This document shows positions 2,869 to 21,947 of a stretch of 34,394 nt of DNA, in pieces. Source of the stretch: Candidatus Symbiothrix sp. Its GTDB lineage: Bacteria; Bacteroidota; Bacteroidia; Bacteroidales; Azobacteroidaceae. How positions within the stretch are numbered: position 1 is the first letter of the stretch; every line of letters starts with the position of its first letter. The position numbers and the translations under genes are program-made. The notes beneath the pieces are model-generated. The model did no database searches, had not been told where the DNA came from, and worked only from the letters and a program-made list of their open reading frames with translations. The stretch lies in NCBI GenBank assembly GCA_031261295.1, contig JAISKT010000203.1, forward strand, positions 1-34,394. Direction: 5' to 3'.

Positions 2869-5313
2869 TTAAAAAACACGAATTTCTATTTGACCGGTTT
2901 TCAGGCCCTTCGCTTTAGCCTCTAAAAGGAATCGGCCCTCCTTTTCCCCTGCTTGTACAATCGTCGTTAACTCTCCGTTGAAAGCGTGCATTTGCGGCGA
3001 ATGAAACAAACCCAAACAAGTAGGGTCGCCATTGGCAGAAGCTTTGTATTTGCCTTCTCCCTTTACGGAAAAGGAAATCAAGCGTTGGTCGTTCGGACAG
3101 AGATTGCCGTCTTTATCCACTACGCTTACGCGGATATAGGCTAAATCTTTTCCGTCCGGAGCTATTTGATTCCTATCGGCAGTTAATTGAATATGATGCG
3201 GTTTTCCGGCAGTGCGGATGGTTTCTTCTCCGGCTATTTTTCCCTGCGCATCGTAAGCAATCACTTTCACTTCGCCCGGTTCGTACAGGACATTCATCCA
3301 CATCAGACGATACCGGTTTTGTACAGTCGTGTTGTTTTTATGCTGCTTTCCGTAACTTTTCCCGTTGACAAACAATTCGGCAGACGGGTAATTCGTATAG
3401 ACAAATACCGGCGTTTCCTGTCCTTCGCGTCCTTCCCAATTCCAATGCGGAAGAATATGCAAAGTGGTTTCATTTTTGTTCCAAATACTCCGGTATAAAT
3501 AATAGCGGTCTTTGGGAATACCGGCTAAATCAATGATACCAAACAGGGAACTGTGATTGGGCCAACCGGTATCGTAAGGAGTAGGTTCGCCCAGATAATC
3601 AAATCCGGTCCACACAAATTGTCCCATAGTCCATTCGTGGTCGTCCGCCCAGGCAAAATCATCGTCCGGCAGATTCGACCACCAGCAATATTCCATATCG
3701 TAAGACGACGATTGGTGGTCGTCGTAAACGGCATTCGCTTTTTTCTCCACCGGAAATTTATATACGCCACGCGAACTGACGGTGGAGGCTGTCTCCGAAC
3801 CCAACAACAAGTTTTGCGGCAGCTTATTGTATGCTTCCTGATATTTGTGGAGCCGGTAATTAAATCCGGGAATGTCCAGCATGGAAGCAAAACCATTGTT
3901 CAATACGCAATCCGCCTGGTCCATTCCGCAAGTTACCGGACGGGTGGGGTCTTCGCGGTGGCAAATATCCTGTAGAAACAAAGCTACTTTATAGCCATCT
4001 TCAGAGCACTGAGTGGGTACTTCGTTGCCAATGCTCCACATGACCACACAAGGATTATTCCGGAAATGGCGAAGCATATTGACCATGTCTTTTTCCGCCC
4101 ATTCGTTGAAAAACCGGTGATAACCGTTCTTGCATTTGGCAATATCCCATTCATCAAAAGGCTCTATCATCATCATAAAACCCATTTCATCGCAGAGTTC
4201 GACCAATTCCGGAGCAGGCATATTGTGCGTCGTGCGAATGGCGTCGCAACCCATATCTTTGAGCAAAGTCAGTTGCCGGCGGAGAGCCGCCTTATTAACG
4301 GCAGCGCCCAACGGCCCTAAATCGTGATGGTTACAGACGCCTTGGAATTTACGCCGTTCGCCATTCAGGAAAAACCCTTTTTCAGCCTCTAAACGAATGT
4401 CCCGAATGCCCAAACGAGTGGAATACGCATCGACCTGTTGGTCATTGACATAAATTTTGGAAACGGCGGAATACAAATAAGGCGTTTCGGGCGACCACAA
4501 ATGCGGTTGTTCAACGATCAAATTTTGTTCCAGCGGCCGGTCGTGATTGACTCGTTGCGTATTCTCCTTGCGAGCCACGACTTCTCCTTCGGGATTCCGG
4601 ATTTCGGTTACAATCCGAATATCCGTTCCGGTGGCATTGGCCACTTCTGTTTTTAGTTTTACGGTCGCCTGTTCTTTTGAAACGTAAGGAGTTGTGATGT
4701 ATGTTCCCCAAACGGGAATATGTATTTCGTTACTAACCACCACTCTGACATTGCGGTACAATCCTGCGCCGGGATACCAACGGGAAGATTGCGGCCGGTT
4801 TTCCAAGCGGATGGCAAGTGTGTTGTTTTTGCTATCTGTTTGTAATAAATCGGTTACGTCGCAGTGAAAAGAGTTGTATCCATACGCCCAAAAGCAAGCT
4901 TCTTTGCCGTTTACATACACTCGCGCCTCGCTCATGGCCCCGCCAAAAACCAACGAAACCCGTTTTTCTCCTTTTTTGAAACCGTTTACATCAAACACTT
5001 TCCGGTACCAACCGGCGCCGATGTAAGGAAGTCCCCCGGTACGACCGGTTTTTACAGAGGCTGCTTTTTCCCCGTTTTGGGTAATAGCCACTTCCTGCAC
5101 ATCATATTGGCTGTCGAAAGGCCCGTAGATTGCCCAATCGTGAGGGACTGTCACAGATTCCCATTGGGTATCATTAAAATCGCGGCGAGCGGCGTCAGGG
5201 AAATCGCCTTTGCTGAATTTCCAGTTTTTTTCGAGTAAAAATTCTTGCCGGAGGGTTTGCGCCTGCAGGTTGCAGGCCAGCCCTATTAGCAGTATCAGTA
5301 TTGTCTTTTTCAT
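2869..5313 (-). CDS. Glycoside hydrolase family 2 beta-galactosidase, secreted/periplasmic
   Basis: 814 aa with a type I signal peptide (residues 1-18, likely cleavage LQA|QT). It has the GH2 sugar-binding jelly roll (about 25-190, with WYRKVF and SRWYPGAGLYRNV), an Ig-like domain (about 200-300), and a TIM barrel (about 305-610). The acid/base is in MWSIGNEVPT (E430) and the likely nucleophile in LLLGSETAST (E507). C-terminal beta domains of the DUF4982/Ig type follow. It lies 58 bp downstream of the GH53 gene at the end of the susC operon, so the expected job is to release galactose from galacto-oligosaccharides in the periplasm. GH2 members can also be beta-glucuronidases or beta-mannosidases; galactose specificity rests on the GH53 neighbour. 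Confidence 0.9.
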   Translation of the reverse strand: MKKTILILLIGLACNLQAQTLRQEFLLEKNWKFSKGDFPDAARRDFNDTQWESVTVPHDWAIYGPFDSQYDVQEVAITQNGEKAASVKTGRTGGLPYIGAGWYRKVFDVNGFKKGEKRVSLVFGGAMSEARVYVNGKEACFWAYGYNSFHCDVTDLLQTDSKNNTLAIRLENRPQSSRWYPGAGLYRNVRVVVSNEIHIPVWGTYITTPYVSKEQATVKLKTEVANATGTDIRIVTEIRNPEGEVVARKENTQRVNHDRPLEQNLIVEQPHLWSPETPYLYSAVSKIYVNDQQVDAYSTRLGIRDIRLEAEKGFFLNGERRKFQGVCNHHDLGPLGAAVNKAALRRQLTLLKDMGCDAIRTTHNMPAPELVELCDEMGFMMMIEPFDEWDIAKCKNGYHRFFNEWAEKDMVNMLRHFRNNPCVVMWSIGNEVPTQCSEDGYKVALFLQDICHREDPTRPVTCGMDQADCVLNNGFASMLDIPGFNYRLHKYQEAYNKLPQNLLLGSETASTVSSRGVYKFPVEKKANAVYDDHQSSSYDMEYCWWSNLPDDDFAWADDHEWTMGQFVWTGFDYLGEPTPYDTGWPNHSSLFGIIDLAGIPKDRYYLYRSIWNKNETTLHILPHWNWEGREGQETPVFVYTNYPSAELFVNGKSYGKQHKNNTTVQNRYRLMWMNVLYEPGEVKVIAYDAQGKIAGEETIRTAGKPHHIQLTADRNQIAPDGKDLAYIRVSVVDKDGNLCPNDQRLISFSVKGEGKYKASANGDPTCLGLFHSPQMHAFNGELTTIVQAGEKEGRFLLEAKAKGLKTGQIEIRVF

Positions 5314-5327
5314 TATTGTTGTTGTTT

Positions 5328-5372
5328 TTTAAGAATCTTAAGGAGCTTAAGGGGCTTAAGTACCTTAAGAGC
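5328..5372. repeat. 9-bp-period CTTAAG tandem repeat between GH2 and GH53 genes
   Basis: Five 9-bp units run back to back: TTTAAGAAT, CTTAAGGAG, CTTAAGGGG, CTTAAGTAC, CTTAAGAGC. The core CTTAAG is itself palindromic and the last three bases vary. The array fills almost the whole gap and reaches the stop codon of the GH53 gene. A related five-unit array of the same period lies inside the histidine kinase gene at 19799-19843. Confidence 0.9.
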
Positions 5373-6394
5373 TATTTATAAGCCTCTAAAGCAATGGTCG
5401 GTTTTCCGGAATCGTCGAATGCACCTAAGGTATAGCCGTTCCAGTTGCTGTACGATTGCGGTTCCCAGTAGAATACGCCTTGGCATTTTGCACCGGCGAT
5501 CTGTTTTGCTTGAGAAATCAGGTCGCTCAAAAATGCTTTGGCAGCTGTGGATTGATTCCAGGGCATTCCTACTTCGCAAATCATCACTTCCGTTCCGTAG
5601 CGGCTAATTACATCTTTCACATTGGCGATGCAGCGGTTGTTCTTCTCTTGCCAATTGTCTGCACTTGGATAGAGCGACATACCTATCATATCCCATTTAC
5701 CGTTATTCTTTTTCAGTCCGTCAAACAGCCAGCGATACAAGTTGTTGTTATCGCCGTTAGGCAAGTGAACAATTACCTTGGCATCGGGAAATACGGATTT
5801 TACGGCATCGTATCCGGCATTGTTCAAGGCTGCATAATTCGCCATATTGGTATCTGCCTGTCCCATGGGCCAAAGCATTCCATTGCTTGTTTCATTGCCA
5901 ACTTGTACCCACTCCGGAGTGAGTCCTTTGGATTTTAGTAATTCGAGAGTTGTGGTGGTGTGAAGCGCTACCGCCTGTTTCATTTCTTCCAAATTCAGGT
6001 TTTCCCAAGCGGCGGGAATGGTTTGTTTGCCGGGGTCTGCCCAGGAGTCGCTGTAATGGAAATCAATCATTAGCTTCATGCCGAGATTGTGTGCACGAAT
6101 GGCTTTCACCAACATATCTTCCTTGTTACACCAACCGTTAGCCGGATTTACCCAAACGCGCAGGCGTATGGCGTTTACACCCTGTTCTTGCAAGAGCGCC
6201 ATACAGTCCATTTCGCGACCGGACGTATTGTAAAATTTACGCCCGGCTTTTTCCATTTCCGTGAGCCAGCTAACATCGGCGCCTTTGGCAAAAGTATCCG
6301 GCGCTTGCGGTTTTTCTTCCGGAATAGGGTCTTCCGAGCATGTTGAGAAAAATAGCAGGCTAATAAAGCAGAAAAATATTGTTGTTGTTTTCAT
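5372..6394 (-). CDS. GH53 endo-beta-1,4-galactanase, outer-membrane lipoprotein
   Basis: 340 aa from the ATG at 6394; a GTG five codons upstream is less likely because the hydrophobic signal begins right after the ATG. It has an SPII signal with lipobox LFFSTC and mature Cys19, followed by acidic residues as in surface-exposed Bacteroidetes lipoproteins. The single clan GH-A barrel shows GH53 hallmarks: GADVSWL, RLRVWVNP, DFHYSDSWADPGKQ, acid/base in WVQVGNET (E168) and nucleophile in MICEVGMPW (E274), then GVFYWEP near the end. GH53 enzymes cut internal beta-1,4-galactosyl bonds of pectic galactan. The gene is downstream of the glycan-binding lipoprotein gene and is the main evidence for the substrate of this PUL. 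Confidence 0.95.
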   Translation of the reverse strand: MKTTTIFFCFISLLFFSTCSEDPIPEEKPQAPDTFAKGADVSWLTEMEKAGRKFYNTSGREMDCMALLQEQGVNAIRLRVWVNPANGWCNKEDMLVKAIRAHNLGMKLMIDFHYSDSWADPGKQTIPAAWENLNLEEMKQAVALHTTTTLELLKSKGLTPEWVQVGNETSNGMLWPMGQADTNMANYAALNNAGYDAVKSVFPDAKVIVHLPNGDNNNLYRWLFDGLKKNNGKWDMIGMSLYPSADNWQEKNNRCIANVKDVISRYGTEVMICEVGMPWNQSTAAKAFLSDLISQAKQIAGAKCQGVFYWEPQSYSNWNGYTLGAFDDSGKPTIALEAYK

Positions 6395-6404
6395 ATTTTT
6401 TTTG

Positions 6405-6474
6405 TCCACGAATTACACAAATTTTCACGAATTTCATAAACACTTAATTCGTGTCAATTCGTGTAATTCGTGGA
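6405..6474. repeat. Inverted repeat built of CACGAATT-type units
   Basis: The left arm (6405-6434, beginning TCCACGAATTACACAAATTT) pairs with the right arm (6445-6474, ending GTGTAATTCGTGGA) around a short AT-rich loop. Each arm has about three 10-bp units with the core ACGAATT or AATTCGT. It fills the gap between the SusE/F-like gene and the GH53 gene inside the presumed operon. No T-tract follows. The family looks like an interspersed repeat I recall from other Bacteroidetes. Confidence 0.85.
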
Positions 6475-6484: not shown

Positions 6485-8179
6485 TTATTCAAATTTGTAT
6501 GTCAAATTCACTAAATCGACCGTCATTTGATAGGCGCCGGGAGCGAGTGAGGCATCATCGGTAATGTTACTGCCTTGATAATATAATTTCCCCTCGGAGC
6601 CACCGAATTTATAAGTCCAAGAATCTTTCAAATTAATGGTAAATCCCCAGGGCGAAGCGCTGTTAATCGTAATACTGCCGGAGAAGACACCGGGCGTAAC
6701 GGTTGCCGCCAATGGCGTATTAAAATCCCATACATCGTGCAAACCTACCACATATATTTCATTACCAACACTTGTGAGATTGTAAGTAAGCTCTTTGAGC
6801 GAGGTTTCTATCAAATAAAGACCGGCAGCCGGAGCGGGAAGGTCACCGTTTGTTCCTTGAAAAACAAGCGTTCCGCTATAAGCATCGCCTTCGCCTAAAG
6901 TATATTTATCCGCCCAATTATCTTTTTCGGTGTTGATGGTATATCCCCATAAAGAGTTCACATTCACAACGCCTGCATAAGTCAGTTTGTCTTCATCGAA
7001 AAGAGGTAATTTATTATCAAAATTCCAATCTCCACCCGTAATGCCATCGTCTATGCCCGGCAGATAAACGCATGGATTTACCTCTATTGGTCCGGCAGAG
7101 CCACTTACCACTTCATACGTCCATTCGTTCGGATTGCTGAGGTCGATAACCAAAGTATATTCGCCTGCTGCGGGTACATTTACTGTGATATCGCCTGCCG
7201 AAGATGCCAATACCAGCCGGTTGCCTTCTTGTGTAAACGCTAATGCTTGACTTACGGAGGCGTCGGTACCGGTTTGCGCATTGTAAAGTTGCCCTGCCGA
7301 ATTGAGTTTGATTTTCAATGTCGAAGCTGCTGTGGCATTAATGGCATAAGTCCATTTCACATTGGGACGGTCGAAAATCATATCGCCGCTCAGGTCGCCG
7401 CTTACAGTCAATACAGGCAGCAAGAGCGCCGACCATTCTTTGGCGGCAGTGTTTATATTTACATAGTAGCAACCTGCTGTGCCGGGAAACCAAAAATTCC
7501 ACGGGTCTGCGGAAGAAATAAGAAATGCCGATCCGTCCACCGGAACGTTGCCCCAAATGGTGCCGTCTCCTTCCTGAAGAAAGAAGTTCTGGTAACCGAC
7601 TACTCCCATGAATCCGGTATAAATGCCATCGGATTGCGGAGAGGAAAGGGTACGTCCGGTATCTTCCTGCTCTTTGCTGAGGATAAATCCAATACTCATA
7701 TCTATGGAGTAAGGCGTTATATTAACCGTAACGACATTGCTATATACCGGTTCCATATTGTTGCCGACACTCGACCGTATTCTAAAATAAACAGGAGAAG
7801 CTATATCGGGCGTTAATTGGAGATTTTTCGCAATCGTGTTTAGCTCTGCGCCGGTGTAAGCTTTGGACGGACTTTTTTCCAAAATTTCTATTACATTCGT
7901 TGCAAAATCACTTTGATTGGAAACTTGCACATACGTTGAAAGGACATTGGGCGCTTTCTTGTCGGGATTGCTTACCGAGAGCGTGCTGTTGTTCCAAGCC
8001 AATGACAACACAATTTCTTGGGACGTTTCCTGGCTCAGTACAACATTCTCTTTTGTGGCTGCTAATTCATTTTCTTCCAGACCGGAAAGATAGAGGCGTT
8101 CGCCGTCTTCTTCGCAAGCGCTTATTGCCAGCAGCAATAGCAACGTCCAAAGGCAATTATTTATTATTTTAGTTTTCAT
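6485..8179 (-). CDS. SusE/SusF-like outer-membrane glycan-binding lipoprotein
   Basis: 564 aa. The SPII signal ends in AISAC (mature Cys22) and is followed by EEDGE, a typical lipoprotein export context. The N-terminal region (about 30-150) looks like a SusE Ig domain (AATKENVVLSQE, VSNQSDF, PVYFRIRSSVG). After it come repeated beta-rich modules, each with a 'W-G-F/Y-T-I-N' type strand pattern (LWGYTINTEKD, PWGFTINLKDS) and a YxLxVDL ending, as in SusF/SusE carbohydrate-binding domains. It follows susD by 22 bp in the operon. The expected role is binding galactan at the cell surface beside SusC/D. It has no catalytic motifs. Confidence 0.88.
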   Translation of the reverse strand: MKTKIINNCLWTLLLLLAISACEEDGERLYLSGLEENELAATKENVVLSQETSQEIVLSLAWNNSTLSVSNPDKKAPNVLSTYVQVSNQSDFATNVIEILEKSPSKAYTGAELNTIAKNLQLTPDIASPVYFRIRSSVGNNMEPVYSNVVTVNITPYSIDMSIGFILSKEQEDTGRTLSSPQSDGIYTGFMGVVGYQNFFLQEGDGTIWGNVPVDGSAFLISSADPWNFWFPGTAGCYYVNINTAAKEWSALLLPVLTVSGDLSGDMIFDRPNVKWTYAINATAASTLKIKLNSAGQLYNAQTGTDASVSQALAFTQEGNRLVLASSAGDITVNVPAAGEYTLVIDLSNPNEWTYEVVSGSAGPIEVNPCVYLPGIDDGITGGDWNFDNKLPLFDEDKLTYAGVVNVNSLWGYTINTEKDNWADKYTLGEGDAYSGTLVFQGTNGDLPAPAAGLYLIETSLKELTYNLTSVGNEIYVVGLHDVWDFNTPLAATVTPGVFSGSITINSASPWGFTINLKDSWTYKFGGSEGKLYYQGSNITDDASLAPGAYQMTVDLVNLTYKFE

Positions 8180-8201: not shown

Positions 8202-9794
8202 TTAATATTTTTCGTTTGAGAGATTCGGATTGGCTGAAAGTTCGGTATAGGGAATCGGATAAATATTGTATTTTTCATCCGTAGCAATGCCTTCTTTCGC
8301 GCCGCCTTTCCATGACCAAATGTAGTTATCTCCTGCAAATTTTCCAAATCGTATCAAATCCGTTCTGCGGGTACATTCCCAATACAATTCACGCGCCCGT
8401 TCATCCAAGATAAAATCTAAGGTCAATTCGGCATCTGATATATTTCCGGATTGACTACGGTATGCTCTTTCGCGCAACAAGTTAATGTATCCGCGAGCGT
8501 CAGAAGGAGAAGCGCCTGTTCCACCGCGCAACACCGCTTCGGCAAACATCAGATAGACATCAGCCAAACGAAACATCGGGAAATCGGTGTTTACGCCGTC
8601 TGCCGACACGTTGGATGCTGTCTGACCTGCATCGGTCTTATTCGTCCATTTTTCCACACAATAACCTTGCGCCTGGTCGGTCATCACATCCAAATTCAAT
8701 GATTGACCTTGCGTATAGAACATGGCGCGGGAATCCTGCGTAGTGTTGACATCGCCGAATTTGAGCGGAAGCTCTTGTCTGACACGAAACATCCCCCACG
8801 CTTCGTTTACGCCATAATCATCAGGACTTGGGTAGGCGGTGGTAATGGCTCCGGCTACGACGTAAGTAGTGGAACCCCACGAAGTAGTATGTTCCGCATC
8901 AACGGCAAACGGGAAAATGATTTCATTCGTCCGCAAATGATTGTCGGCATTGAACAGTTTGGCATAATTTGACTCCAGCGCATAACCTTCGGCAAAAACA
9001 TTTTTACAAGCGGTTATACATTCGGTATAATACTTTTTCTGTACATACACTTCTGCATTGAGATAGAGTTTTGCCAACAAGGTATAAGCGGCTCCTTTGG
9101 TAGCACGCGCATATTCTGCACCTGCTTTAGATGGTAAGACAGGCGCGATTTCGTTCAATTCGCTTTCGAGGTATTCAAACAATTGGGCGCGGGTATAACG
9201 TTGCGGAATAAACGCGCCGACCGGATCGTTTTCGGTCACAAACGGAACGCCGTCAAAAAAATCCAAAGCATGATAGTAGGCCAATGCCCGCAAAAACCGC
9301 GCTTCGGAACGAAAATCACGAATATCTTTTTGTTCGCTTTCCGAAAATTTGGCAATCTGTCCATCGGTGGCATTGCGCAGAAATTCGTTGCACAGCGCGA
9401 TGGTGTAATAAATATGATAATACATATCCGATACCCAAATATCAGTGGCTTCCCATTTCATATAGGCAATATTCGCCATATTATTTCCTTCGAGCCAGGT
9501 ATAGGCAATTTCTTCCGTCGGCGCTTCCTGCAAATTAAAATAGATACGCATATAGTCGGCATTTTCGCCGTTATCGCTGGAAATATCAGCATTTCCGCCG
9601 CCTTTTTCCTGTCCGGAGATAACAAACGAGGCATAAAGTTTCGCCAATACCGATTTGTAGTTGGCGGGATTTTCATACACCGATGCCGAAGTGGTTTCCA
9701 CATGAGGCATTTGGTTGAGGTCGTCCGTGCACGAATTGAAAAGGACGATTCCCAATGCCATTATTCCTAAAAATATTTTATTTCTTTTCATCAT
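8202..9794 (-). CDS. SusD/RagB-family nutrient-binding outer-membrane lipoprotein
   Basis: 530 aa. SPII signal with lipobox LFNSC (Cys22) followed by TDDLNQ. Family features are visible: the N-terminal SusD-like region (SVYENPANYKSVLAKLYASFV), TPR-like helices (RDFRSEARFLRALAYYHALDFFDGVPFV), and the C-terminal block FRLADVYLMFAEA, LLRERAYR, LDFILDERARELYWECTRRTDLIRFGKF, ending in YPIPYTELSANPNL. SusD caps the SusC barrel and delivers oligosaccharide. The gene is 8 bp downstream of susC. Two ATGs are adjacent at the start and either may be used. Confidence 0.96.
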   Translation of the reverse strand: MMKRNKIFLGIMALGIVLFNSCTDDLNQMPHVETTSASVYENPANYKSVLAKLYASFVISGQEKGGGNADISSDNGENADYMRIYFNLQEAPTEEIAYTWLEGNNMANIAYMKWEATDIWVSDMYYHIYYTIALCNEFLRNATDGQIAKFSESEQKDIRDFRSEARFLRALAYYHALDFFDGVPFVTENDPVGAFIPQRYTRAQLFEYLESELNEIAPVLPSKAGAEYARATKGAAYTLLAKLYLNAEVYVQKKYYTECITACKNVFAEGYALESNYAKLFNADNHLRTNEIIFPFAVDAEHTTSWGSTTYVVAGAITTAYPSPDDYGVNEAWGMFRVRQELPLKFGDVNTTQDSRAMFYTQGQSLNLDVMTDQAQGYCVEKWTNKTDAGQTASNVSADGVNTDFPMFRLADVYLMFAEAVLRGGTGASPSDARGYINLLRERAYRSQSGNISDAELTLDFILDERARELYWECTRRTDLIRFGKFAGDNYIWSWKGGAKEGIATDEKYNIYPIPYTELSANPNLSNEKY

Positions 9795-9802: not shown

Positions 9803-12763
9803 TTAAAATTCAAGGCCTAAACTAAGTGAAAATATTCTCGGACGCGGATAAAACGAACTGTCGAATCCGTTGGGAACCTCCGGGTCAACACCCGAATAGT
9901 TTGTCCATGTAAATACATTTTGTATCATAACGGAAAGATTCAGATTCACCCCTTGGGCTATTTTTCCGAAATTGTATCCGAGCGTGAGATTATCCATTTT
10001 CAGGAAAGAAGCGTTTTCCACGTAATAATCGGAAAGATATTGACGGGTTTGGAAACCGGTTTTCAAATAACTCGAATGTACGTTATTGAGTTGAAAATCA
10101 TTGTAGGATATGGTTCCGTATGCTCCGGTATTCATTGCCGTACCGTTGTAAACATAATTGCCCACGTTGGCGCGGAATCCCATGCCCAAACTCCATTTTT
10201 TGTATTGCAATTGGGTGCTCAGTCCGAATATTACATCGGGAGCGGGCGAATGATAGCGATACAAGTCGCCGGAATTGGTTTCGCCGTTTTCATCCAAATC
10301 CACATACGCTCCTTCGATGGGTCTGCCTGTTTTTTCGTCATACAGTTGTTTGTACACATAAAACATATAAGGAGCATATCCTTCCGTAAGTACTTGTATA
10401 GGCGTGTTATCGACCGTTGGCCCCGCCGGAGTATTGACTACATTAACCCCTTTTACTAATGATAGATTATCTATTTCCACTTGTTGATACGTTACGTTAA
10501 ACGCAAGGTTCCAGGTAAAATCCCGGTTGGTTATCGGAATAGTGTTGAGGGCAAATTCCCATCCGTTGCTGTCCACATTCCCGACATTCGTCATAATGGT
10601 TTTGTTGAAATTTGCACCTGCGGGCGCCGGAACAACGGCCAGCAAGTCTTTTGTTTTCCGGGTGTAATAATCCAAGCTGCCGGAAATCCGTCCGTTCAGA
10701 AATCCGAAATCAAATCCGCCATTATAAGCGGTGGTGCTTTCCCATTTCAAATCCGAATTGTAGGCTTCCGGACGGTAGGTATAATAATATTGGTTGCCAA
10801 AAAGGTATTGGGCGCCATCTTGTCCGTAAGTATAAATCGGCAAATAAGCGTAATTACCGATGCCGTCCTGTTGCCCGGTAACGCCATAGCTGAGCCGGAG
10901 TTTCAGGTCGCTGACTACGGAATTATCTTTCAGGAAAGCCTCTTCCGACAATCGCCAAGCCAATGCAAGCGAAGGAAATGTTCCCCATTTTTCTTTGAAA
11001 CGCGAAGTCCCATCGCGCCGCAGGGTTGCGGTAAGCAGATAACGGGAATCATACGAATAATTCAAACGGGCATAATACGATAACAGCACGTGCCGCTGGT
11101 CGGCCGGTGCGGAGGAGGATTGTTTTACACCGGCTATATTCAGTTCTTCATAAGCCGCGGAGGTCGATTTCCAGAATTGGTAATCGTAGCCGGCTGTGGC
11201 GTCAAGGGTGCTTTTCGCCTCCGGAAAGGTTTTGTTGTAATTCAGGTAAGCGGTAAACAAACGGTTTTCGTTTTTTTGCGGACCATATACATAATCGCGA
11301 CCGCCGGAAGAGTAGGAATAAGCAGCTTCTGCCGGAACATACACTTTTCCTTCACCTTTGGCATAATCGTATCCTAAGGTGACGTGCGCCCGCAATGCCG
11401 GAAGGAAGTGCATTTTGTAATCGGCATCTACATTTCCGATTACCCGGCCTACGGTACTGGTCGATTCCCGTTCTTCGAGTATCCCCAACGGATTCAATAC
11501 GGCGCGAGTAACGAGTTCCCCTTGACTGTTGACGGCTTCGTTGTATCCGCCGTATTGGTTCGTGTCGGAATAAACCGGAATGGTTGGATTGTAAGTAGCT
11601 GCATTCCATACCGCCCCACCGTCTGCAAAACGGTTTTTATTCATCGCGCCTTTTACATTGACATTGAATTTCAGATAATCATCTAAAAAAGAAGGACTGA
11701 GTGAAAGACTTCCGGTGTAACGGTTGGCATTGTCCGTTTTCAGTAATCCGGCTTGTCTATAAGCGCCTAACGAAGCCCGGAACGGCAGATTTTTTGCAAT
11801 TTTACCTGACAAACTCAAATTATTGTCCGTACCAAAAGCATTGTGAAAAACTTGGTCGTTCCAATCGGTGGAAGCATTGCCGAGCAACGATTTTTGCAGG
11901 GCGGTTCCTTGCGACTGGATGACTTCCCTGAATTGATTTTCCGAAAGCATATCCGCTAATTTTGTACGGGCTTGGATAGAATTGGTGGTACTGAAATTCA
12001 TTTTCAATTTGTCGTCCGTCCCTTTCTTGGTCGTAATAAGCAATACACCGTTGGATGCTCGTGAGCCGTAAATAGCAGTCGAAGAAGCATCTTTCAGTAC
12101 GGTCATCGTTTCGATGTCGTTCGGGTTAATCAGGCTCAAAAAGTTATTGTTGTTTCCGCTGATTCCACCCATTTCGAGCGGCACGCCATCTAAAACTATC
12201 AATGGATCGTTGCTGGCATTGAGCGAAGCGCCACCCCGGATGCGGATACTGCTTCCGGCAGTGGGCGAACCGCTATTCGACATAATCTGTACGCCGGCCA
12301 CTTTTCCATTGATCAATTGTTCGGGCGAACTGACCATGCCTTTGTTGAAATCTTTGTCGCTAATGACTGAAATTGAACCGGTAAGGTCTTTCTTTTTCTG
12401 TGTTCCGTATCCGATGACAACGATTTCATTTATCAACTGAGCATCCGGTTGTAATTGGATGTCTATCACCGATTTGTTTCCAACGGTTACGATTTGTTTT
12501 TCGTAACCTAAAAAGGAGAACTCAAGTTGGTTTTGCCCTTCCGGTAAGTCAATCTGATACTCTCCCCATAAATCGGTTACCGTACCCAGCGTAGTTCCCA
12601 GGACTTGGACAACACCTCCAATAATTATTTCCCCTTTTTCGTCCACAACAACGCCTCTCACATTCTTGGACTGTGCGTTTGCTACCCATGGGAGCAACCA
12701 CAATAAGGCAGTCATTGTCCAAAGACAAAACCGAAATTCTTTACGATTTTTGTGTTTTTTCAT
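9803..12763 (-). CDS. SusC/RagA-family TonB-dependent outer-membrane transporter
   Basis: 986 aa. Signal peptide cleaved after VANA. It has an N-terminal carboxypeptidase-like regulatory domain (about 33-115: RGVVVDEKGEIIIGGVVQVLG, LEFSFLGYEKQ), a TonB-box-like stretch (NEIVVIGYGTQKKKDLTGSI), and a plug domain with the SusC signature around LIVLDGVPLEMGG and VLKDASSTAIYGSRASNGVL. A 22-strand-type barrel ends in the aromatic terminus SLGLEF. No N-terminal anti-sigma interaction (STN) domain is seen, in line with control by the nearby sensor-regulator and not by an ECF sigma factor. Expected to import galacto-oligosaccharides. It is the first gene of the operon running to the GH2 gene; no clear TAnnTTTG element was seen upstream. 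Confidence 0.96.
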   Translation of the reverse strand: MKKHKNRKEFRFCLWTMTALLWLLPWVANAQSKNVRGVVVDEKGEIIIGGVVQVLGTTLGTVTDLWGEYQIDLPEGQNQLEFSFLGYEKQIVTVGNKSVIDIQLQPDAQLINEIVVIGYGTQKKKDLTGSISVISDKDFNKGMVSSPEQLINGKVAGVQIMSNSGSPTAGSSIRIRGGASLNASNDPLIVLDGVPLEMGGISGNNNNFLSLINPNDIETMTVLKDASSTAIYGSRASNGVLLITTKKGTDDKLKMNFSTTNSIQARTKLADMLSENQFREVIQSQGTALQKSLLGNASTDWNDQVFHNAFGTDNNLSLSGKIAKNLPFRASLGAYRQAGLLKTDNANRYTGSLSLSPSFLDDYLKFNVNVKGAMNKNRFADGGAVWNAATYNPTIPVYSDTNQYGGYNEAVNSQGELVTRAVLNPLGILEERESTSTVGRVIGNVDADYKMHFLPALRAHVTLGYDYAKGEGKVYVPAEAAYSYSSGGRDYVYGPQKNENRLFTAYLNYNKTFPEAKSTLDATAGYDYQFWKSTSAAYEELNIAGVKQSSSAPADQRHVLLSYYARLNYSYDSRYLLTATLRRDGTSRFKEKWGTFPSLALAWRLSEEAFLKDNSVVSDLKLRLSYGVTGQQDGIGNYAYLPIYTYGQDGAQYLFGNQYYYTYRPEAYNSDLKWESTTAYNGGFDFGFLNGRISGSLDYYTRKTKDLLAVVPAPAGANFNKTIMTNVGNVDSNGWEFALNTIPITNRDFTWNLAFNVTYQQVEIDNLSLVKGVNVVNTPAGPTVDNTPIQVLTEGYAPYMFYVYKQLYDEKTGRPIEGAYVDLDENGETNSGDLYRYHSPAPDVIFGLSTQLQYKKWSLGMGFRANVGNYVYNGTAMNTGAYGTISYNDFQLNNVHSSYLKTGFQTRQYLSDYYVENASFLKMDNLTLGYNFGKIAQGVNLNLSVMIQNVFTWTNYSGVDPEVPNGFDSSFYPRPRIFSLSLGLEF

Positions 12764-12800: not shown

Positions 12801-12941
12801 GATGTCTCGACTTCGCGTTGGGCTGAGGCTCCAGCGTTGGGCTGAGGCTGGAGCCTCAGCCCTATTATGTTTGCAGGCTGGAGCCTGCATGGATAAACCG
12901 ACGGAGGTAGAACCTCCGCCGAACGAGCGAGTTGAGATATC
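12801..12941. repeat. Composite cluster of palindromes upstream of susC
   Basis: The 177-bp gap between the GH5-like gene and susC is mostly repeat. A 19-bp direct tandem repeat (12815-12833 and 12834-12852, starting GCGTTGGGCTGAGGCT) overlaps an 11-bp-stem palindrome at 12839-12862. Two further palindromes lie at 12872-12889 (TGCAGGCTGGAGCCTGCA) and 12902-12918 (CGGAGGTAGAACCTCCG). Outer imperfect inverted arms (12801-12815 and 12924-12941, GATGTCTCGACTTCG against CGAGTTGAGATATC) enclose them all. The cluster starts at the stop codon of the upstream gene and could act as an mRNA 3' end or leader structure. Confidence 0.85.
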
Positions 12942-15442
12942 TATTCTATCCATACATTGCCTAAACTAAGCATTGCCTCTTGCGGTACTTCATCGACCGT
13001 AGCAATTTCGAACATTTCAATCGTTGATATATCGAATGGAATTTGACTGTCCGGCGTAAAATACCGCTCCAAAAATACCGGATAGGGCGAGGGTAATAAA
13101 GCCGTTTTATCCTGTCGCAATTCCGATAAAGGAATTTTAACCAGCCCGTTTTCTTTATCCGGTTTGAACCCGGCCGTATAGGTAAATCCGGCGGAAGTGA
13201 TGAATCCGGCTTTCAGACGGTCAATTCCTTGACTGTTTTTCAGCTGCACGCAAAGATAGCGGGCTGTGTGCAAAGCATCCGGCCGCATTTCCACTTGGTC
13301 TTTGATGTATTTTCGTACTATTTTTAAACTTTTCCCTGTAAAAGACCATTCCGGAATGCTGTACAATTCCATTCCGTTGTTCTCATCCGTAATGCGTACC
13401 AATTCTACCGGACTTCCGGCATTCACTACCCTACTCTCCCAATAAGCCGTTTGATACGCATCCCAATCCAGCGGACTTCCTTCTACATTGGCCGGAAAAG
13501 TGTATGTATGTCCTTTCGTGAATACCACTATATCGTATTTGAAAACGCCTTCTTGTATCATTTCCGCCGGTATTTCGGCTTGATAGGTATATCCTTGTAT
13601 CCGTTTCATTTTCCAGTACGGATTGTTGTCAAACCAAAACGAAACTTTATCGGTATAAACGAGTACGGAATCGGGGAAAGACGTGTCCACAATCTGCGCT
13701 TCAATTCGTAAAGGTTGATTGCTTTCAATTATTTTTTTCGGTTGATGAACAAAGCCCAAGCCCCCCTTAATCCCCCCACAAGGGGGAAATGTCTGCGGAC
13801 TTTCGGGAGCGGCAAACTCGCCGAGAGAAATATTTTTCCATTGGCTTGAAGCTGTCCACGAATTTTGTGAAGTATGTCCGGTACGTTCCAGAAGATAGAC
13901 GCCCGGTTGAATAGCAAAGTTGCTATCTGACGATTTTGTTTGATAGGAATTTCCGGCATTCAGGGCGGTAATCTTAAAATCCGTTCCCAAATCGAGGAGT
14001 TTTACCTGCATATTCCACCTGTTCCATACAATAGAAACCACTTCTTTTTTCAAGGATGGTTTTTCAAAAGGGTCACGTACTTGAACGGCATCGGGCATTA
14101 CTTCCAATCGCCACAAACCGGATTCCAAACGGTCTAAAAAGTAAGCGCCCGTTCCCTCGTACTGCACCACAACGGAATTGCCGTAACCGGCTATTTCTTT
14201 CAAATCGCCGGGCGCAACCGGATTTGAAATCGTATGATTGGAATAAAAGAACTTTTCCGGCGTATTCAATTCGCTTAAATCGGATAAATAACTTACATGA
14301 AACGCATTAAAAACGGTATCGTTCGGATATTTTGCAAATGAAGCGTTGCGCGGAACCGAATACGCCACCTCTGCTGCAATTTTCATACTGAGCGCCTTGC
14401 GGGGCGTATAAGCCAGATTGAGAAAATGAGTCTGATATTCGGTATTTGCCCAGGCAATGTCGATCGGGTCGTAAGCAAATTGCGTAATCCATTGAAAGCC
14501 TTTGCTACGGAAAGTCCGCGCCATGGCCGGATACAGATAGGAATAGGTCACGTCGGCAGGGTCAAATTCATACACCAATTTGGCTTTTTTGTCAAAACCT
14601 TTCACGTTGGAGAAAGGAATCGCATAATCATCCACGTAGGGCAGGAAATTGCCTTTGCGGGTATGTCCGGCAACCAATCCCACGGGATACCATTGATAGG
14701 TCGTTCCTTGAATATTAGTATCGTAATAAGCAGCTACATGCGGCATGTTGTGACTTACATTATAAAAAACCGGTTTGCTGTTTCCTGCTTTTTTGAGGGT
14801 AGCCAACATTGTATTGATATATTCTTTGGTTTGCGCGGGCGTTTCGGCATGGCAGGGTTCGTTGTTTATTTCAAATCCGATGATGTAAGGGTCGTCTTTG
14901 AGCGCCTGCCGGGTGTAGGGATTCACGTGTTTGACAAATTGACTGATATACTTCGTTTGTGCGGCAATGGCATTGGGGTCGCTGTGCACTTTGCATTTAT
15001 CATATAAATAGGAAAATCCTCCGGTTGGCTTATTCTTTTCCGGATAACCGTTGCCGAAATTGGTCATGGTGGTCAGCACGATGCGGATATTGCGTTCCTG
15101 TAACTTGGCAATCAGGTAATCCAATAAATCCAAATGTTCATTTTCGATGATATTTCCGGTACTGTCGGATATTTCCACATCCCACACATGCACACGGTAG
15201 GCATTGAATCCCAAGCGGGCAAAATGATACACATCTTTGTCAATAGCTTCTTTGTGATTTTTTCCGGTATAATTTATCGCCCGGTACGCATGAGCAAAAG
15301 GTAACGTATAATTTACTCCATAAAACGAGGCTTCTTTCCGACTGTCCGACCAGCGCATGACGCCTTCTTGGTCAATATAAACCGTTTGTGCAAAAGATGA
15401 TAACGAAAGGAATACGCAGAGTATTGATAAAATGTGTTTCAT
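12941..15442 (-). CDS. Secreted clan GH-A (GH5-like) glycoside hydrolase with C-terminal beta domains
   Basis: 833 aa. Type I signal peptide (cleavage SSFA|QT). The barrel (about 25-365) has clan GH-A features: FYGVNYTLPF, LGFNAYRVHVWD, acid/base in GFEINNEPCH (E195) and probable nucleophile in KLVYEFDPAD (E292), then QWITQFAYDP. The rest (about 366-833) is beta-rich with no motif I recognise and ends in a carbohydrate-binding-like domain. In a galactan PUL it may be an exo-acting beta-galactosidase (GH147 is a candidate family) or an arabino-/galacto-active GH5-type enzyme; I cannot tell which. It has its own promoter and sits between the regulator and susC. A short repeat is inserted in frame at residues about 551-563. 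Confidence 0.8.
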   Translation of the reverse strand: MKHILSILCVFLSLSSFAQTVYIDQEGVMRWSDSRKEASFYGVNYTLPFAHAYRAINYTGKNHKEAIDKDVYHFARLGFNAYRVHVWDVEISDSTGNIIENEHLDLLDYLIAKLQERNIRIVLTTMTNFGNGYPEKNKPTGGFSYLYDKCKVHSDPNAIAAQTKYISQFVKHVNPYTRQALKDDPYIIGFEINNEPCHAETPAQTKEYINTMLATLKKAGNSKPVFYNVSHNMPHVAAYYDTNIQGTTYQWYPVGLVAGHTRKGNFLPYVDDYAIPFSNVKGFDKKAKLVYEFDPADVTYSYLYPAMARTFRSKGFQWITQFAYDPIDIAWANTEYQTHFLNLAYTPRKALSMKIAAEVAYSVPRNASFAKYPNDTVFNAFHVSYLSDLSELNTPEKFFYSNHTISNPVAPGDLKEIAGYGNSVVVQYEGTGAYFLDRLESGLWRLEVMPDAVQVRDPFEKPSLKKEVVSIVWNRWNMQVKLLDLGTDFKITALNAGNSYQTKSSDSNFAIQPGVYLLERTGHTSQNSWTASSQWKNISLGEFAAPESPQTFPPCGGIKGGLGFVHQPKKIIESNQPLRIEAQIVDTSFPDSVLVYTDKVSFWFDNNPYWKMKRIQGYTYQAEIPAEMIQEGVFKYDIVVFTKGHTYTFPANVEGSPLDWDAYQTAYWESRVVNAGSPVELVRITDENNGMELYSIPEWSFTGKSLKIVRKYIKDQVEMRPDALHTARYLCVQLKNSQGIDRLKAGFITSAGFTYTAGFKPDKENGLVKIPLSELRQDKTALLPSPYPVFLERYFTPDSQIPFDISTIEMFEIATVDEVPQEAMLSLGNVWIE
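13755..13790. repeat. Palindromic C/G-run repeat inserted in frame in the GH5-like gene
   Basis: The segment has two C-runs and a G-run (AAGCCCCCCTTAATCCCCCC, then ACAAGGGGG) giving a palindromic core. It is read on the minus strand as TFPPCGGIKGGLG in the middle of the protein, between ordinary beta-domain sequence (GEFAAPESPQ before, FVHQPKKIIESNQPLRIE after). Its base composition is unlike the flanks, and the Pro/Gly-rich peptide looks like an inserted linker. Similar C-rich palindromes are, from memory, interspersed repeats in many Bacteroidetes. Confidence 0.75.
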
Positions 15443-15469: not shown

Positions 15470-15477
15470 CAAATATA
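15470..15477 (-). promoter_or_regulatory. Bacteroidetes-type -7 element upstream of the GH5-like gene
   Basis: On the minus strand this reads TATATTTG, matching TAnnTTTG. It lies 28 bp before the ATG at 15442. No clear -33 TTG is seen at the usual 19-21 bp. The element suggests the GH5-like gene is transcribed separately from the regulator gene, which ends at 15551. Confidence 0.5.
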
Positions 15478-15550
15478 GGGTTGAAACGATGTTTTGGAAA
15501 GCACAAAATGGACAAATCAGGAAAGAAAAAGGACAATCGGTTGGAATTTT

Positions 15551-18514
15551 TTATTCTTCCGGATACTTCTTCGGCGATTTTCCGAACTCCGCCTGAAAAC
15601 ATTTGGAGAAATAAGACGGGCTGGAAAATCCCACCATATACATTACTTCCGAAACCGTGAATTTGTTCTGCGATAAAAGCATTGCCGCTTTTTTCAGCCG
15701 GATGGAACGGATATATTCAACCGGCGATTTGCCGGTCAGTTGTTTGATTTTCCGGTAAATTTGTTTAGAACCCATACCGGACAGGATGCTGAGAGAATTG
15801 ACATTCAAATCGAGGTCGGAGATCCGGTCTTCGATGATGCCGGTCATTTCCGACAGGAATTTTTCATCGGGGGAAGTTATTTCAACCGGTTTTAGGGTGG
15901 TGAGTGTTTCAAAAGTGATTTTCTGTTTTAATTGCTGTTGAATCAACTCATTCAAATTCAACGCATTTTGCATGACCGACTCCAATTGTATTTTCTTATT
16001 ATTATCTTTTATGTCCGGCAATAGTTTTCTTAATGGGTTGATAATCAAATTTAAAGGCGTTTTAAATTCATGGGAAACATTGTTGTAAAAATCGATTTTC
16101 AGGTTTGAAAATTCGAGTGTTTTTTCCCTTTCAATGCGTTCGATACGCAGATTATTCCGCATCCTGAAAAAAATGAATATCCACAGTAACAGACCGGCTA
16201 TCAGGAGAATATAAATACATTTGGCGGCCGTAGTATAATACCAGGGAGGCGTAATGCGGATCATAAACACGAACGGCGTGTCAGAAGGTTCTCCCGATGA
16301 ATCCAATTTGCTGATAATCAAACGGTATTTCCCGTATTCTACGTTTTGGTATGAAATGCGATTGGTCTGTTGTTTTAATATATTCCACTTCGTATCAATC
16401 CCTTCCAACCGGTAAACAAATTTATTGCCTTGTTCATTGTAATACTGTAAGTCCGAAAATTCAAGGATCAGATTATTTTGTTTGTAGTTCAGTTTGATCT
16501 CATTCAGATAGCGTACACTCAAGTTTTCCGGATGATACAATTCGCCGTTCACATAAAGCGCTGTGAGAATGACCGGAGCATTTATTTCCGATTCCTGCAA
16601 CAATGACGGCGAAAACAAGGCCAATTCATCGCTTGCCCCCAGATAGATTTTACCGGACGTCGGATCATAAAATCCAGCGGTAAACAAGTTATTGACAATA
16701 TTCAGGTTTTGCACTTTTTCCGTTTGCTTATCGACTATCCAAACGCCTTCCGTAGTCGAAATCCAGAGATGCCGCCCTTCTTCCACCATAGATAGTATTT
16801 CGCAGGTATTGAACAGGTTAAGCCGGATAAACTTCGATTGGTTATTCTCCGGATCCATTCGGATCAATCCATTCGGAAATCCGATCCAGATAAATCCTTC
16901 ATTATCGCAAAGAATATAATCGGGTTGGTTATTTTCATTTTCGGCATCCAGGAGAATTTTGGTTATTTTATTTTCTTGAACATCAATTTTATTGACTCCG
17001 TTTTTATAGAACAACACCCACACATTTCCTTTTTTGTCGGGCGCTATCCGGTTGACAAAACTTCCCGAAAGTCCGTCCTGAACAGTATAATTCCGTTCGG
17101 CAACGTAAACGCCCGTCGATTGCATCAACCGTTGTTTATCGACCACGAATATTCCGCCGAGGCAGGTGGCAATCCACAAGCGGCCCCGGTCATCTTCGAA
17201 GAGATCATACGCCCAATTGGAATTGTAGGTATGCGTACTGTCGATAATGGAATAATGGACAAACTGCTTTTCCGGATAATCGTACCGGCTGATACTGCCG
17301 TCGGAAGCAATCCACAGCTGGTGGTCTTTATCTTCGTATATCTGCCGGATACGGTTGTGGGAAATGGGATAGTTGGAATCGCCCATCCGGTACCAGATCG
17401 AAGTTTCCGGATGGTTGAGCGAAGGAGCAAAAATCAATCCGTTTGTTCCGCCCAACCAGAAATTTTTGCGTGAATCGCGGAACAAAGCATGAAAACGGTT
17501 TCCGTTGCCTATACCGGTTATCCGGGAAATAGGAATAAACTGAAACGCTTTATTGTAGCGCGCCAAGGAAATATTGTAATCGGTTCCCAGCCAGCTATTC
17601 CGTTCCCTATCCGAAAAAATGCTCCATATTATATTGTTTGACAACGATTTATCATTTCGTGAGTCATGCACAATGTGTTGTACACTGTTGCTTTCTTCAT
17701 CATAAACGTAAAGCCCATTGTCTGTTCCGACAAGTAAATTTTCATTCGGATCAATTGCCAGCGATTTGACCGAATTATTGCGGAAATGATTTAAAGCTTC
17801 CGCCCGGTTCTGTGCCGGAACATATTTATACAGTGTACCTTCCGTTCCAATCCAAATACATTTTCGTAAAGTATCTTCCAGCAAAACATTGATAAACTGA
17901 TTACTTCTTTTGAAATCGGATGGAAGCGCAATTTTTTCAAATTTTCCGGTACCGGGTACGTATTTACAAAAACCGTTATACGTTCCGATATACAAGGTAT
18001 GATCCGATTGAATAATGGAATAAATCGTTTGATGCGGAAGACCGGAAGATTCGTTTGCCGGGATATTTTCAAGTGTATGGTTCTGAAGATGATAGCGAAA
18101 CAGACCTTTCAACGAGCCTATCCACAAAATGCTGTCGCAAACCGTCATTGTCCGCACATCGGTTGGAAAAACAACACCGGACGGTTCGGATTGATCCGTT
18201 TGGTAGTTATAAAAAAATACGCCGTTGTCTGTTCCGAGGCACAGATGACTTTTATTCAGAATCAAAATACAATAAACCTGATTATTTGTTTCGATTGAAG
18301 TATGGGCTTGTGCCGAAAAACCATCGTAACTATACAATCCCCGGTTCGATCCCATCCATATCAATCCCTGATAATCCTGGGCAAAACAATTGATTGCGGA
18401 GGCGTCAGCGCTCAGAACAATATTTTCAAAAGTATGGTAATCTGCTTTTTGTCCGTGCAAGCAAAATACAAATAAGAAAGAAAATAAGAAGCCATATAAG
18501 AATTTTCCGTGCAT
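15551..18514 (-). CDS. Propeller-type sensor/AraC regulator of the PUL, lacking ATPase and receiver domains
   Basis: 987 aa, inner membrane. Signal peptide (1-21), about 14 Reg_prop propeller repeats (W-G/S-x-GL-Y type, about 30-640), a Y_Y_Y domain (about 685-755), and one TM helix (about 766-784). A phospho-acceptor helix follows with the H-box NVSHEFKTPLNLI (His815, codon 16070-16072), and an AraC-type DNA-binding domain makes up the end (about 880-987; SKQIYRKIKQLTGKSPVEYI, FSSPSYFSKCFQAEFGKSP). Classical hybrid two-component systems of Bacteroides are about 1300-1400 aa and have HATPase_c and REC domains between these parts. Here the protein goes from the second DHp helix (LNLNELIQQQ) straight into the usual pre-AraC linker (TSPDEKFL) at about residue 862. 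It has its own promoter and should activate the galactan operon. Confidence 0.9.
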   Translation of the reverse strand: MHGKFLYGFLFSFLFVFCLHGQKADYHTFENIVLSADASAINCFAQDYQGLIWMGSNRGLYSYDGFSAQAHTSIETNNQVYCILILNKSHLCLGTDNGVFFYNYQTDQSEPSGVVFPTDVRTMTVCDSILWIGSLKGLFRYHLQNHTLENIPANESSGLPHQTIYSIIQSDHTLYIGTYNGFCKYVPGTGKFEKIALPSDFKRSNQFINVLLEDTLRKCIWIGTEGTLYKYVPAQNRAEALNHFRNNSVKSLAIDPNENLLVGTDNGLYVYDEESNSVQHIVHDSRNDKSLSNNIIWSIFSDRERNSWLGTDYNISLARYNKAFQFIPISRITGIGNGNRFHALFRDSRKNFWLGGTNGLIFAPSLNHPETSIWYRMGDSNYPISHNRIRQIYEDKDHQLWIASDGSISRYDYPEKQFVHYSIIDSTHTYNSNWAYDLFEDDRGRLWIATCLGGIFVVDKQRLMQSTGVYVAERNYTVQDGLSGSFVNRIAPDKKGNVWVLFYKNGVNKIDVQENKITKILLDAENENNQPDYILCDNEGFIWIGFPNGLIRMDPENNQSKFIRLNLFNTCEILSMVEEGRHLWISTTEGVWIVDKQTEKVQNLNIVNNLFTAGFYDPTSGKIYLGASDELALFSPSLLQESEINAPVILTALYVNGELYHPENLSVRYLNEIKLNYKQNNLILEFSDLQYYNEQGNKFVYRLEGIDTKWNILKQQTNRISYQNVEYGKYRLIISKLDSSGEPSDTPFVFMIRITPPWYYTTAAKCIYILLIAGLLLWIFIFFRMRNNLRIERIEREKTLEFSNLKIDFYNNVSHEFKTPLNLIINPLRKLLPDIKDNNKKIQLESVMQNALNLNELIQQQLKQKITFETLTTLKPVEITSPDEKFLSEMTGIIEDRISDLDLNVNSLSILSGMGSKQIYRKIKQLTGKSPVEYIRSIRLKKAAMLLSQNKFTVSEVMYMVGFSSPSYFSKCFQAEFGKSPKKYPEE

Positions 18515-20590: not shown

Positions 20591-21947
20591 TGTATTTTTT
20601 CATCTTGCTGTACAAGGTCGGCCGTGTGATTCCTAATTCCGCCGCTACAGCAGACAAATTGTCTTTATTTCGTTTCAATGAATTTTGAATAAGTATTTTT
20701 TCGGCTTCATCCAACGTCAGGTTATCCAATCCGGGGTCGGTGGAATTTGATTTTTTCAAATAAAAATCAGAAGCCTGCAACAGGTTGTTTTCCGAAAGAA
20801 TCACCGCCTTTTCTATGGTATGTTGCAATTCCCGGATATTGCCCGGCCAATTGTATTCCAGCAGTTTATCAATGGCGTTTGCCGAAAAAGCCATGTCGCC
20901 TTTGTCATATTTTCCGGCATATTTCTTCAGGAAAAACTTTGCCAGCAACGGAATATCTTCTTTCCGTTCCCGCAAAGCCGGCATCTCTATCTGAATGGTA
21001 TTGATGCGGTACAATAAATCTTCCCGGAACTCTTCTTTTTGCACAGAATCTTGTAAATTACGATTGGTGGCGCTTATCAAGCGGATATCCACCGGAAGGG
21101 GTTTATTGTCCCCTACCCTCACGACTTGCCGGGATTGCAGGACACTCAGTAATTTCGCTTGCAACGGATAGGATAAATTCCCTATTTCATCTAAGAACAA
21201 TGTTCCGCCGTTAGCGACTTCAAACTTACCGGCTCTATCGGCTTTGGCATCTGTGAAAGAACCTTTTACGTGGCCGAACAACTCGCTTTCAAACAACGAT
21301 TCGGTAATAGCGCCCATATCCACCGTTATCAAAACAGCCTTGTGACGGGACGAAATCCGGTGAATTTCGCGGGCAATCACTTCTTTTCCCGTACCGTTTT
21401 CGCCGGTAATCAGGATGTTGGCATCCGTTTTCGCCACTTTTTGAATCATCCGGTGTAATTCCTGCATCACCTCCGAATCTCCCCAACAAATCTCCTGCTC
21501 CTTATTCAATTCCGCCTGCAAAATATCCTGCTTCTCATGCAATTGCTTGACCTCTTTGCGGGATTGCCGCAACGAATAGGCCGCTTGCAAGGTAGCAATC
21601 AATTTGGCATTGTCCCAGGGTTTGACCACAAAATCGCTGGCGCCCTGTTTCAACGCTTTCACAGCCAAGTCAATATCGGCGTATGCGGTAAAAAGTACGA
21701 CCGGCAGTTCGGTATCAAATTTTTTGATTTCCGACAGCCAATACAAACCTTCATTTCCGGTGTTAATGCCGGCGGAAAAGTTCATATCCAGCAACACCAT
21801 ATCAGGCGATGTATTCCGTAAAGTAGCCGGGAGTTGATTGGGCGAAGATAAAAGGGTGACGGTCTCAAAGTATCTTTCGAGTAACATGCGCAAGGCTGTC
21901 AAGACATTTTTATTGTCGTCAACGACTAATATATTACCCTTTTTCAT
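20583..21947 (-). CDS. NtrC-family sigma-54-dependent response regulator
   Basis: 454 aa. REC domain (about 4-118) with acidic pocket DD10-11, phospho-acceptor Asp54 (LLDMNF), TA89-90 and Lys109. AAA+ domain (about 155-390) with Walker A GENGTGKE (182-189), Walker B GGTLFLDEIG and an arginine-rich sensor region (EFREDLLYRIN). Fis-type HTH at the end (LSAVAAELGITRPTLYSKMKK). The sigma-54 contact loop reads GSFTDA (229-234) where the canonical form is GAFTGA; D at the fifth position is, from memory, common in Bacteroidetes homologues. The ATG lies inside the 3' end of the dehydratase gene upstream (14-bp overlap), and the kinase gene follows with an 8-bp overlap, so it is translated from the polysaccharide operon. 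Confidence 0.95.
   Translation of the reverse strand: MKKGNILVVDDNKNVLTALRMLLERYFETVTLLSSPNQLPATLRNTSPDMVLLDMNFSAGINTGNEGLYWLSEIKKFDTELPVVLFTAYADIDLAVKALKQGASDFVVKPWDNAKLIATLQAAYSLRQSRKEVKQLHEKQDILQAELNKEQEICWGDSEVMQELHRMIQKVAKTDANILITGENGTGKEVIAREIHRISSRHKAVLITVDMGAITESLFESELFGHVKGSFTDAKADRAGKFEVANGGTLFLDEIGNLSYPLQAKLLSVLQSRQVVRVGDNKPLPVDIRLISATNRNLQDSVQKEEFREDLLYRINTIQIEMPALRERKEDIPLLAKFFLKKYAGKYDKGDMAFSANAIDKLLEYNWPGNIRELQHTIEKAVILSENNLLQASDFYLKKSNSTDPGLDNLTLDEAEKILIQNSLKRNKDNLSAVAAELGITRPTLYSKMKKYNV

Follow-up and report, generated by a model that had tools for sequence, protein, structure and literature searches.

The window analyzed here, 34,394 nucleotides of Candidatus Symbiothrix sp. 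(assembly GCA_031261295.1, contig JAISKT010000203.1), is the opening stretch of a 99-kb contig and contains a polysaccharide utilization locus (PUL) with its regulator gene, P0001. The gene order fits that of the galactan PUL of Bacteroides thetaiotaomicron (PMC8002723), and the same seven genes stand in the same order in the Bacteroides faecis region L199, which holds the orthologous regulator L066/L133. An orthologous sensor and galactan PUL synteny place P0001 in the BT4673 orthologue group, and P0001 is the predicted regulator of a PUL of the BT4667-BT4673 type. Galacto-oligosaccharide is given as the BT4673 signal in a review (PMC8002723), and disruption of BT4673 brings growth on pectic galactan down to 21.6% of wild type (PMC3243724). 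The features of the locus are collected in Table 1.

Table 1. Features of the regulator gene and of the galactan PUL in the window
Feature	Position	Strand	Remarks
Regulator gene of the galactan PUL, P0001	15551..18514	-	987 aa, ATG to TAA, no stop within 987 codons
Periplasmic sensor: Reg_prop propeller region and Y_Y_Y, residues 20-757	16244..18457	-	
Putative hydrophobic transmembrane stretch, about residues 764-786	16157..16225	-	Read by eye
DHp remnant, residues 807-862	15929..16096	-	Weak HisKA, drifting
His815 codon	16070..16072	-	Position exactly as first placed by the initial annotation
Junction	15920..15935	-	Site at which L050 and L031 have about 305 more residues (HATPase_c and receiver)
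Pre-AraC linker helix and AraC-type DNA-binding domain, residues 880-984	15563..15877	-	
Candidate operator TGTCC-N16-TGTCC, 21-bp spacing	15510..15535	-	Between regulator and next gene
TATATTTG, resembling the Bacteroides -7 promoter element	15470..15477	-	
BT4672-position gene	12941..15442	-	833 aa, conserved, no Pfam family; first gene past the candidate operator
SusC-like transporter	9803..12763	-	
SusD-like protein	8202..9794	-	
SusE/SGBP-position protein	6485..8179	-	SusE, DUF5111, DUF5114
GH53 endo-beta-1,4-galactanase	5372..6409	-	
GH2 enzyme	2869..5313	-	Beta-galactosidase type by position

Residues 20-759 of P0001 match PDB entry 3ott, which we take to be BT4673, with 908 bits (phmmer). 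The labels given by PDB depositors ('Two-component system sensor histidine kinase' for 3ott; a label containing '(One-component sys' for 3v9f) were considered and rejected as decisive. In a Pfam scan run to E 1, whose filters discard most weak matches above about 0.1, P0001 matches Reg_prop (1.3e-34), Y_Y_Y (4.3e-9), HTH_18 (8.8e-19) and HTH_AraC. HisKA scores 21.8 bits at residues 807-860, under the cut-off of 26.9, with His815 present, and neither HATPase_c nor Response_reg is matched. The full-length protein L050 from the same genus scores 40.0 bits for HisKA, 95.4 for HATPase_c and 87.9 for Response_reg in the same scan; the absence of the latter two from P0001 is therefore not a weakness of the models. 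Open reading frame and Pfam matches bear out the initial annotation, which had read a propeller, Y_Y_Y, a transmembrane helix, His815 and an AraC domain in one open frame, and the domain search that it had proposed for the 987-aa protein agrees with its view that ATPase and receiver are missing. No NCBIfam family lies above its cut-off for P0001 among the 25 matches listed. P0001 has the propeller and Y_Y_Y sensor, the AraC domain and the PUL linkage of a hybrid two-component system (HTCS), and lacks the HATPase_c domain and the receiver with its phospho-Asp. Its sensor, membrane helix (by eye) and DNA-binding domain in one chain correspond to a transmembrane one-component (TTR) architecture, in which a DHp remnant remains.

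The extent of the missing segment was read from close relatives. The full-length proteins L050 and L031, whose sensors are 74% and 67% identical to that of P0001, both carry about 305 extra residues between DHp helix 2 and the receiver end, parts that we take to be joined at the P0001 junction; the 230-270 residues of the initial annotation were too few. Close matches occur in 20 of the 393 genomes of the order, the window genome included, and the other 19 comprise 17 frames of 1224-1331 aa and two loci cut by contig ends (L039, L049). Within the genus, the gene is present in 4 of 38 genomes, with full-length copies in G421 (L050, identical to L054) and G394 (L052). The copy in congener G405 (L051, identical to L056) is 944 aa long from its first Met and consists of the sensor, a membrane helix, a short linker and AraC; DHp, ATPase and receiver are all missing from it. 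The PUL that goes with this copy is preserved as far as GH53, at the end of the contig.

We searched the 393 genomes for the same junction with residues 797-987 as query, at E 1e-27 and with no more than 8 candidates scored per genome. No contiguous DHp-AraC match was found elsewhere among the matches listed, and, the window aside, no listed row starts before query residue 38. The initial annotation had proposed a check for homologues sharing the architecture, and its outcome is divided: the DHp-AraC junction has no second example among the matches listed, and receiver-less and kinase-less orthologues do exist. Twenty shorter frames from this search were fetched, 18 of which carry ATPase and receiver; L176 and L178 have neither, nor a DHp match. 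These two (L176:858-3287 and L178:189-2663; 810 and 825 aa) combine a Reg_prop sensor, a membrane helix, a coiled-coil-like linker (by eye) and AraC with no relay domains, stand near GH35, GH43 and GH10 genes (L176) or GH43 and AXE1 genes (L178), and by their domains are a more distant one-component branch. The window genome encodes another one-component-like sensor, a 965-aa protein with Y_Y_Y and a LuxR-type (GerE) domain (L203:1140-4037, in G000:C341). The missing segment was also sought elsewhere in the same genome; the best match, at 37% identity, was rejected as a paralogue.

Across the family, the receiver is present in 69 of 81 distinct orthologues and absent from 12, which have four architectures. 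In a Bacteroides clade that includes B. faecis, Bacteroides congonensis and Bacteroides finegoldii, all eight rows have Asn in place of the phospho-His, keep the ATPase and lack the receiver. L141 has lost the receiver and keeps both His and ATPase, P0001 has lost ATPase and receiver and keeps the His, and L056 and L099 have no DHp, ATPase or receiver, L099 being also without a Y_Y_Y match. On a quick tree of the 81 rows, from which the relay columns were excluded, receiver presence changes four times, or three times when L099 and L056 are left out. The number is also three if P0001 and L056 share one loss; a careful tree of 12 rows groups them with weak support (61/50), and the quick tree separates them. 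Because four of the affected genomes (G436, G446, G453, G472) are single contigs, receiver loss as such is not an effect of assembly. The sensor of L133 (identical to L066, from B. faecis) matches 3ott with 1549 bits over 706 residues, and BT4673 therefore very likely shares the Asn and the receiver loss of its sister species.

These counts rest on the following sampling. The sensor-alignment profile search of genome contigs gave 79 loci. A second search, of the genus around G165, matched 46 of 158 genomes and gave 49 rows, 32 of which were read as loci (L204 and L205 included). The comparison set holds 81 of 108 sequences after removal of partial, broken and distant rows and of 27 duplicates. 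Eighteen of the 79 profile-search loci were left out (contig-end cuts, frame breaks, X runs, distant), and seven of these 18 show DHp, ATPase, receiver and AraC (L073, L093, L095, L113, L117, L127, L130). Left out as well were 7 of the 23 loci from the order and genus searches, five as partial and L050 and L051 as identical to L054 and L056; L204 and L205 stand outside the tree. These last two (L204:95-3667 in G546, L205:1-3231 in G553) are about 32% identical, have Asn and Ala, respectively, at the phospho-His position and show no receiver match; the ATPase match is weak in L204 and missing in L205, which leaves its contig inside AraC. Judged by their domains, they are a further receiver-less group.

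Three more loci deserve description. L099:5914-8460 (849 aa) has its propellers joined to a membrane helix and AraC and lies beside genes for an altronate dehydratase and a LacI regulator; the other PUL genes of the window found no match in the 13.9 kb around it. The orthologue L077:4350-8396 is full length and has Arg in place of the phospho-His, with an intact receiver Asp. In the Bacteroides reticulotermitis orthologue (L084:5911-8852) the H-box has Asn too, and the coding sequence falls into two frames, which could be a draft error or a dying gene.

The DHp remnant has changed faster than the domains on either side of it. Of the sites invariant in 10 full-length relatives, P0001 differs at 8 of 242 in the sensor and at 1 of 56 in AraC. 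In DHp it differs at 8 of 36, a rate about 7 times that of the sensor (Fisher p 2e-4, DHp vs sensor). Compared with the full-length congener L054, P0001 has fewer unique changes in the sensor (38 vs 66) and more in DHp (11 vs 4; p 0.01); in AraC it has 4, and the congener 10. As judged from these substitution patterns, sensor and output are maintained in P0001 and the phosphoacceptor helix is loosening.

A candidate output site lies between the regulator and the next gene. TGTCY-N16-TGTCY has a single match in the window, with 0.09 expected, and is present in 8 of 100 shuffles. Downstream of it, TATATTTG resembles the Bacteroides -7 promoter consensus. Seventy of the 81 rows have downstream DNA, and TGTCY pairs at exactly 21 bp stand in 22 of these 70 regions (3 of 12 receiver-less, 19 of 58 full-length). 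YGTCY, a relaxation chosen after viewing the Bacteroides-clade sequences, gives 32 of 70 regions (9 of 12 receiver-less, 23 of 58 full-length), compared with a mean of 0.2 and a maximum of 3 in shuffles and a count of 3 at the next spacing. HTCS sites are described as direct repeats, on average 21 bp apart (PMC3878776). The stripped regulators thus appear to recognise sites of the same type as the full-length ones do, and we regard the 21-bp repeat as the candidate operator.

The receiver of HTCSs is reported to restrain the DNA-binding domain by an S/CHIP-DK contact, with the His conserved in 91%, and to suppress DNA binding until phosphorylated (PMC11253607). This inhibitory His is found in 1 of the 69 receivers of the P0001 orthologue family, with Thr in 55. 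The window genome encodes 8 receiver-AraC proteins, and all 7 motifs that could be read in them contain the His (L015 shows no motif); among 18 other receiver-bearing HTCSs, 16 of 17 motifs contain it (L188 shows no motif); an off-strand SSTP match in L009 was excluded. The contact seems to have been lost before the receiver, as a correlation and not as proof, and receiver loss may be tolerated in this family because the inhibitory contact was already gone.

For control, two other HTCSs of the window genome served as queries, with 150 matches listed for each and only the top 2 or 3 candidates scored in any genome, a procedure that disfavours short proteins. Query ranges and frame lengths served as the criterion of loss. 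Seven frames of less than 1250 aa were among the 150 listed for the first query and five short frames among the 150 for the second; none of these 12 rows, among the 300 matches listed, has an internal loss of ATPase or receiver, as each begins late, stops early or is split into halves. Relay loss within the P0001 orthologue family, on the alignments at hand, is repeated and not isolated to P0001.

We consider it probable that P0001 is a real, working membrane-bound one-component activator that arose from a hybrid two-component galactan sensor of the BT4673 family. That an internal deletion made such an activator had been proposed in the initial annotation and is supported by full-length close relatives, by differently stripped orthologues and by retention of the repeat ahead of the next gene. 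Several observations pull the other way. The phospho-His is present in 68 of the 69 receiver-bearing orthologues and the phospho-Asp in all 69; most of the family thus still uses the relay, and phosphotransfer still matters there. P0001 itself keeps His815 and the H-box residues E816, T819 and P820, and retention of His815 alone neither shows nor excludes its use. The first, stricter TGTCY pattern stands beside just 3 of the 12 receiver-less genes. Finally, the window genome is a metagenome-assembled genome of 388 contigs (87.75% complete, 5.33% contamination), and no second genome with the P0001 junction was found among the matches listed from the 393 genomes of the order.

The last two points would fit a gene that is truly full length and in which the assembler, perhaps facing a mixture of strains, joined two similar helices. 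A mis-join is conceivable, as the flanks in L050 share the 7 bases TCCGGCA (in LIRQ and LLRQ codons). However, the junction is in frame and inside the 99-kb contig, and the best match to the missing segment in the same genome is the 37% identical paralogue. Drift of DHp suggests that the lineage had already changed, a congener is stripped differently, and the receiver has also been lost in the four single-contig genomes. An artefact is accordingly unlikely in our view.

DHp drift and a junction seen in one genome only, among the matches listed, could also mean that the deletion broke the regulator and that the rest of a decaying gene is simply still intact. We find this improbable, since 987 codons contain no stop, the sensor and AraC domains have gathered fewer unique changes than those of the full-length congener (38 vs 66 and 4 vs 10), and the repeat and the PUL genes are present.

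A little less probable again is phosphorylation of His815 in trans by a separate kinase, which the initial annotation had offered as an alternative and for which the kept His and its E, T and P neighbours would speak, as would a histidine kinase gene 0.7 kb upstream of the regulator (19250-20590; PAS and HATPase_c, no HisKA match). At 19250-21947, however, this kinase gene overlaps a gene for an NtrC-type sigma-54 regulator, next to a polysaccharide-synthesis gene, and it is probably unrelated to P0001. P0001 lacks a receiver that could take over the phosphate and has lost 8 of the 36 invariant sites of its DHp, L051/L056 has no DHp at all, and the eight-row receiver-less clade has Asn in place of the His. 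A constitutive or ligand-blind activator, unlocked by loss of a receiver that suppresses DNA binding until phosphorylated (PMC11253607), is very improbable, as the sensor residues are still strongly constrained and family receivers are mostly without the inhibitory His already, so that unlocking need not follow.

If P0001 is indeed a one-component activator, it probably signals directly through the membrane by a change of shape. Binding of galacto-oligosaccharide would change how the two halves of the propeller/Y_Y_Y dimer are arranged; closing on the ligand like scissor blades is reported of a related sensor. Closing of the sensor would reorient the membrane helices, and the change would pass through the DHp remnant, acting as a dimerising helical connector only. 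Two AraC domains would thereby be set side by side on the direct repeat with 21-bp spacing, turning the PUL on without phosphotransfer. The sequences show the architecture, the missing domains, the relatedness, the repeated loss of domains, the conservation of the repeat and the drift of DHp. From these we infer the ligand, the dimer mechanics, the activity, that phosphate is not needed, and that loss of the contact predisposed the family.

For the family as a whole, we put forward a broader proposal, whose chances we regard as evenly poised: one sensor may have given up the contact between receiver and DNA-binding domain family-wide and then repeatedly shed its phosphorelay (the receiver; His and receiver; ATPase and receiver; or everything between membrane and AraC), keeping the sensor, the DNA-binding domain and often the 21-bp repeat. 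If true, members of this family would not need phosphotransfer for PUL sensing, and the widely cited HTCS BT4673 would be a one-component regulator. It is usual to regard HTCSs as self-contained phosphorelays, and that PUL switching requires phosphate is for the most part an assumption. The stripped orthologues would be natural deletion mutants of one sensor, each set lacking other parts of the relay and several standing beside the same kind of output site, which makes the phosphate question testable by domain swaps in a commensal laboratory strain. They would also offer minimal glycan sensors, and annotation of PUL regulators by the sensor alone would miscount HTCSs.

The type of regulator is already known; its repeated derivation within one orthologue family was not found in the literature searched, and no statement on receiver or His loss in BT4673 or its orthologues was found in that literature (open-licence papers). 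BT4673 (HTCS_Pga), regulator of the pectic galactan PUL BT4667-BT4673 of B. thetaiotaomicron, has the orthologous sensor, the same gene order and an AraC output in common with P0001, and is counted among 36 HTCSs that are all described with kinase, receiver and AraC domains (PMC3878776). Its counterpart in the sister species B. faecis keeps the ATPase and has Asn for His and no receiver, whereas P0001 keeps the His and has lost ATPase and receiver. With the HTCSs of Bacteroidota in general, P0001 shares the propeller, Y_Y_Y, membrane helix, AraC and linkage to a PUL, and its DHp is a remnant with a HisKA score under the cut-off; unlike them, its chain has no HATPase_c and no receiver, and hence no phosphorelay. 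Membrane-bound one-component regulators are a common known class, with Y_Y_Y in 7.7% (PMC10269533), and TfoS is an AraC-family, membrane-bound member that couples chitin sensing to competence (PMC7564644). ToxR, CadC and Vibrio TfoS resemble P0001 in that a single chain runs from the sensor over a membrane helix to the DNA-binding domain, with no phosphorelay. In contrast to these TTRs, P0001 appears to derive from a hybrid kinase, keeps a DHp fossil and has orthologues in which the full relay persists. A phosphorylation-independent action has been proposed for the HTCS BT4236, which has Gln at the phospho-His position (PMC11253607). BT4236 and P0001 both lose phosphotransfer and keep the output, but they are different genes, the first with a point loss and the second with the loss of whole domains.

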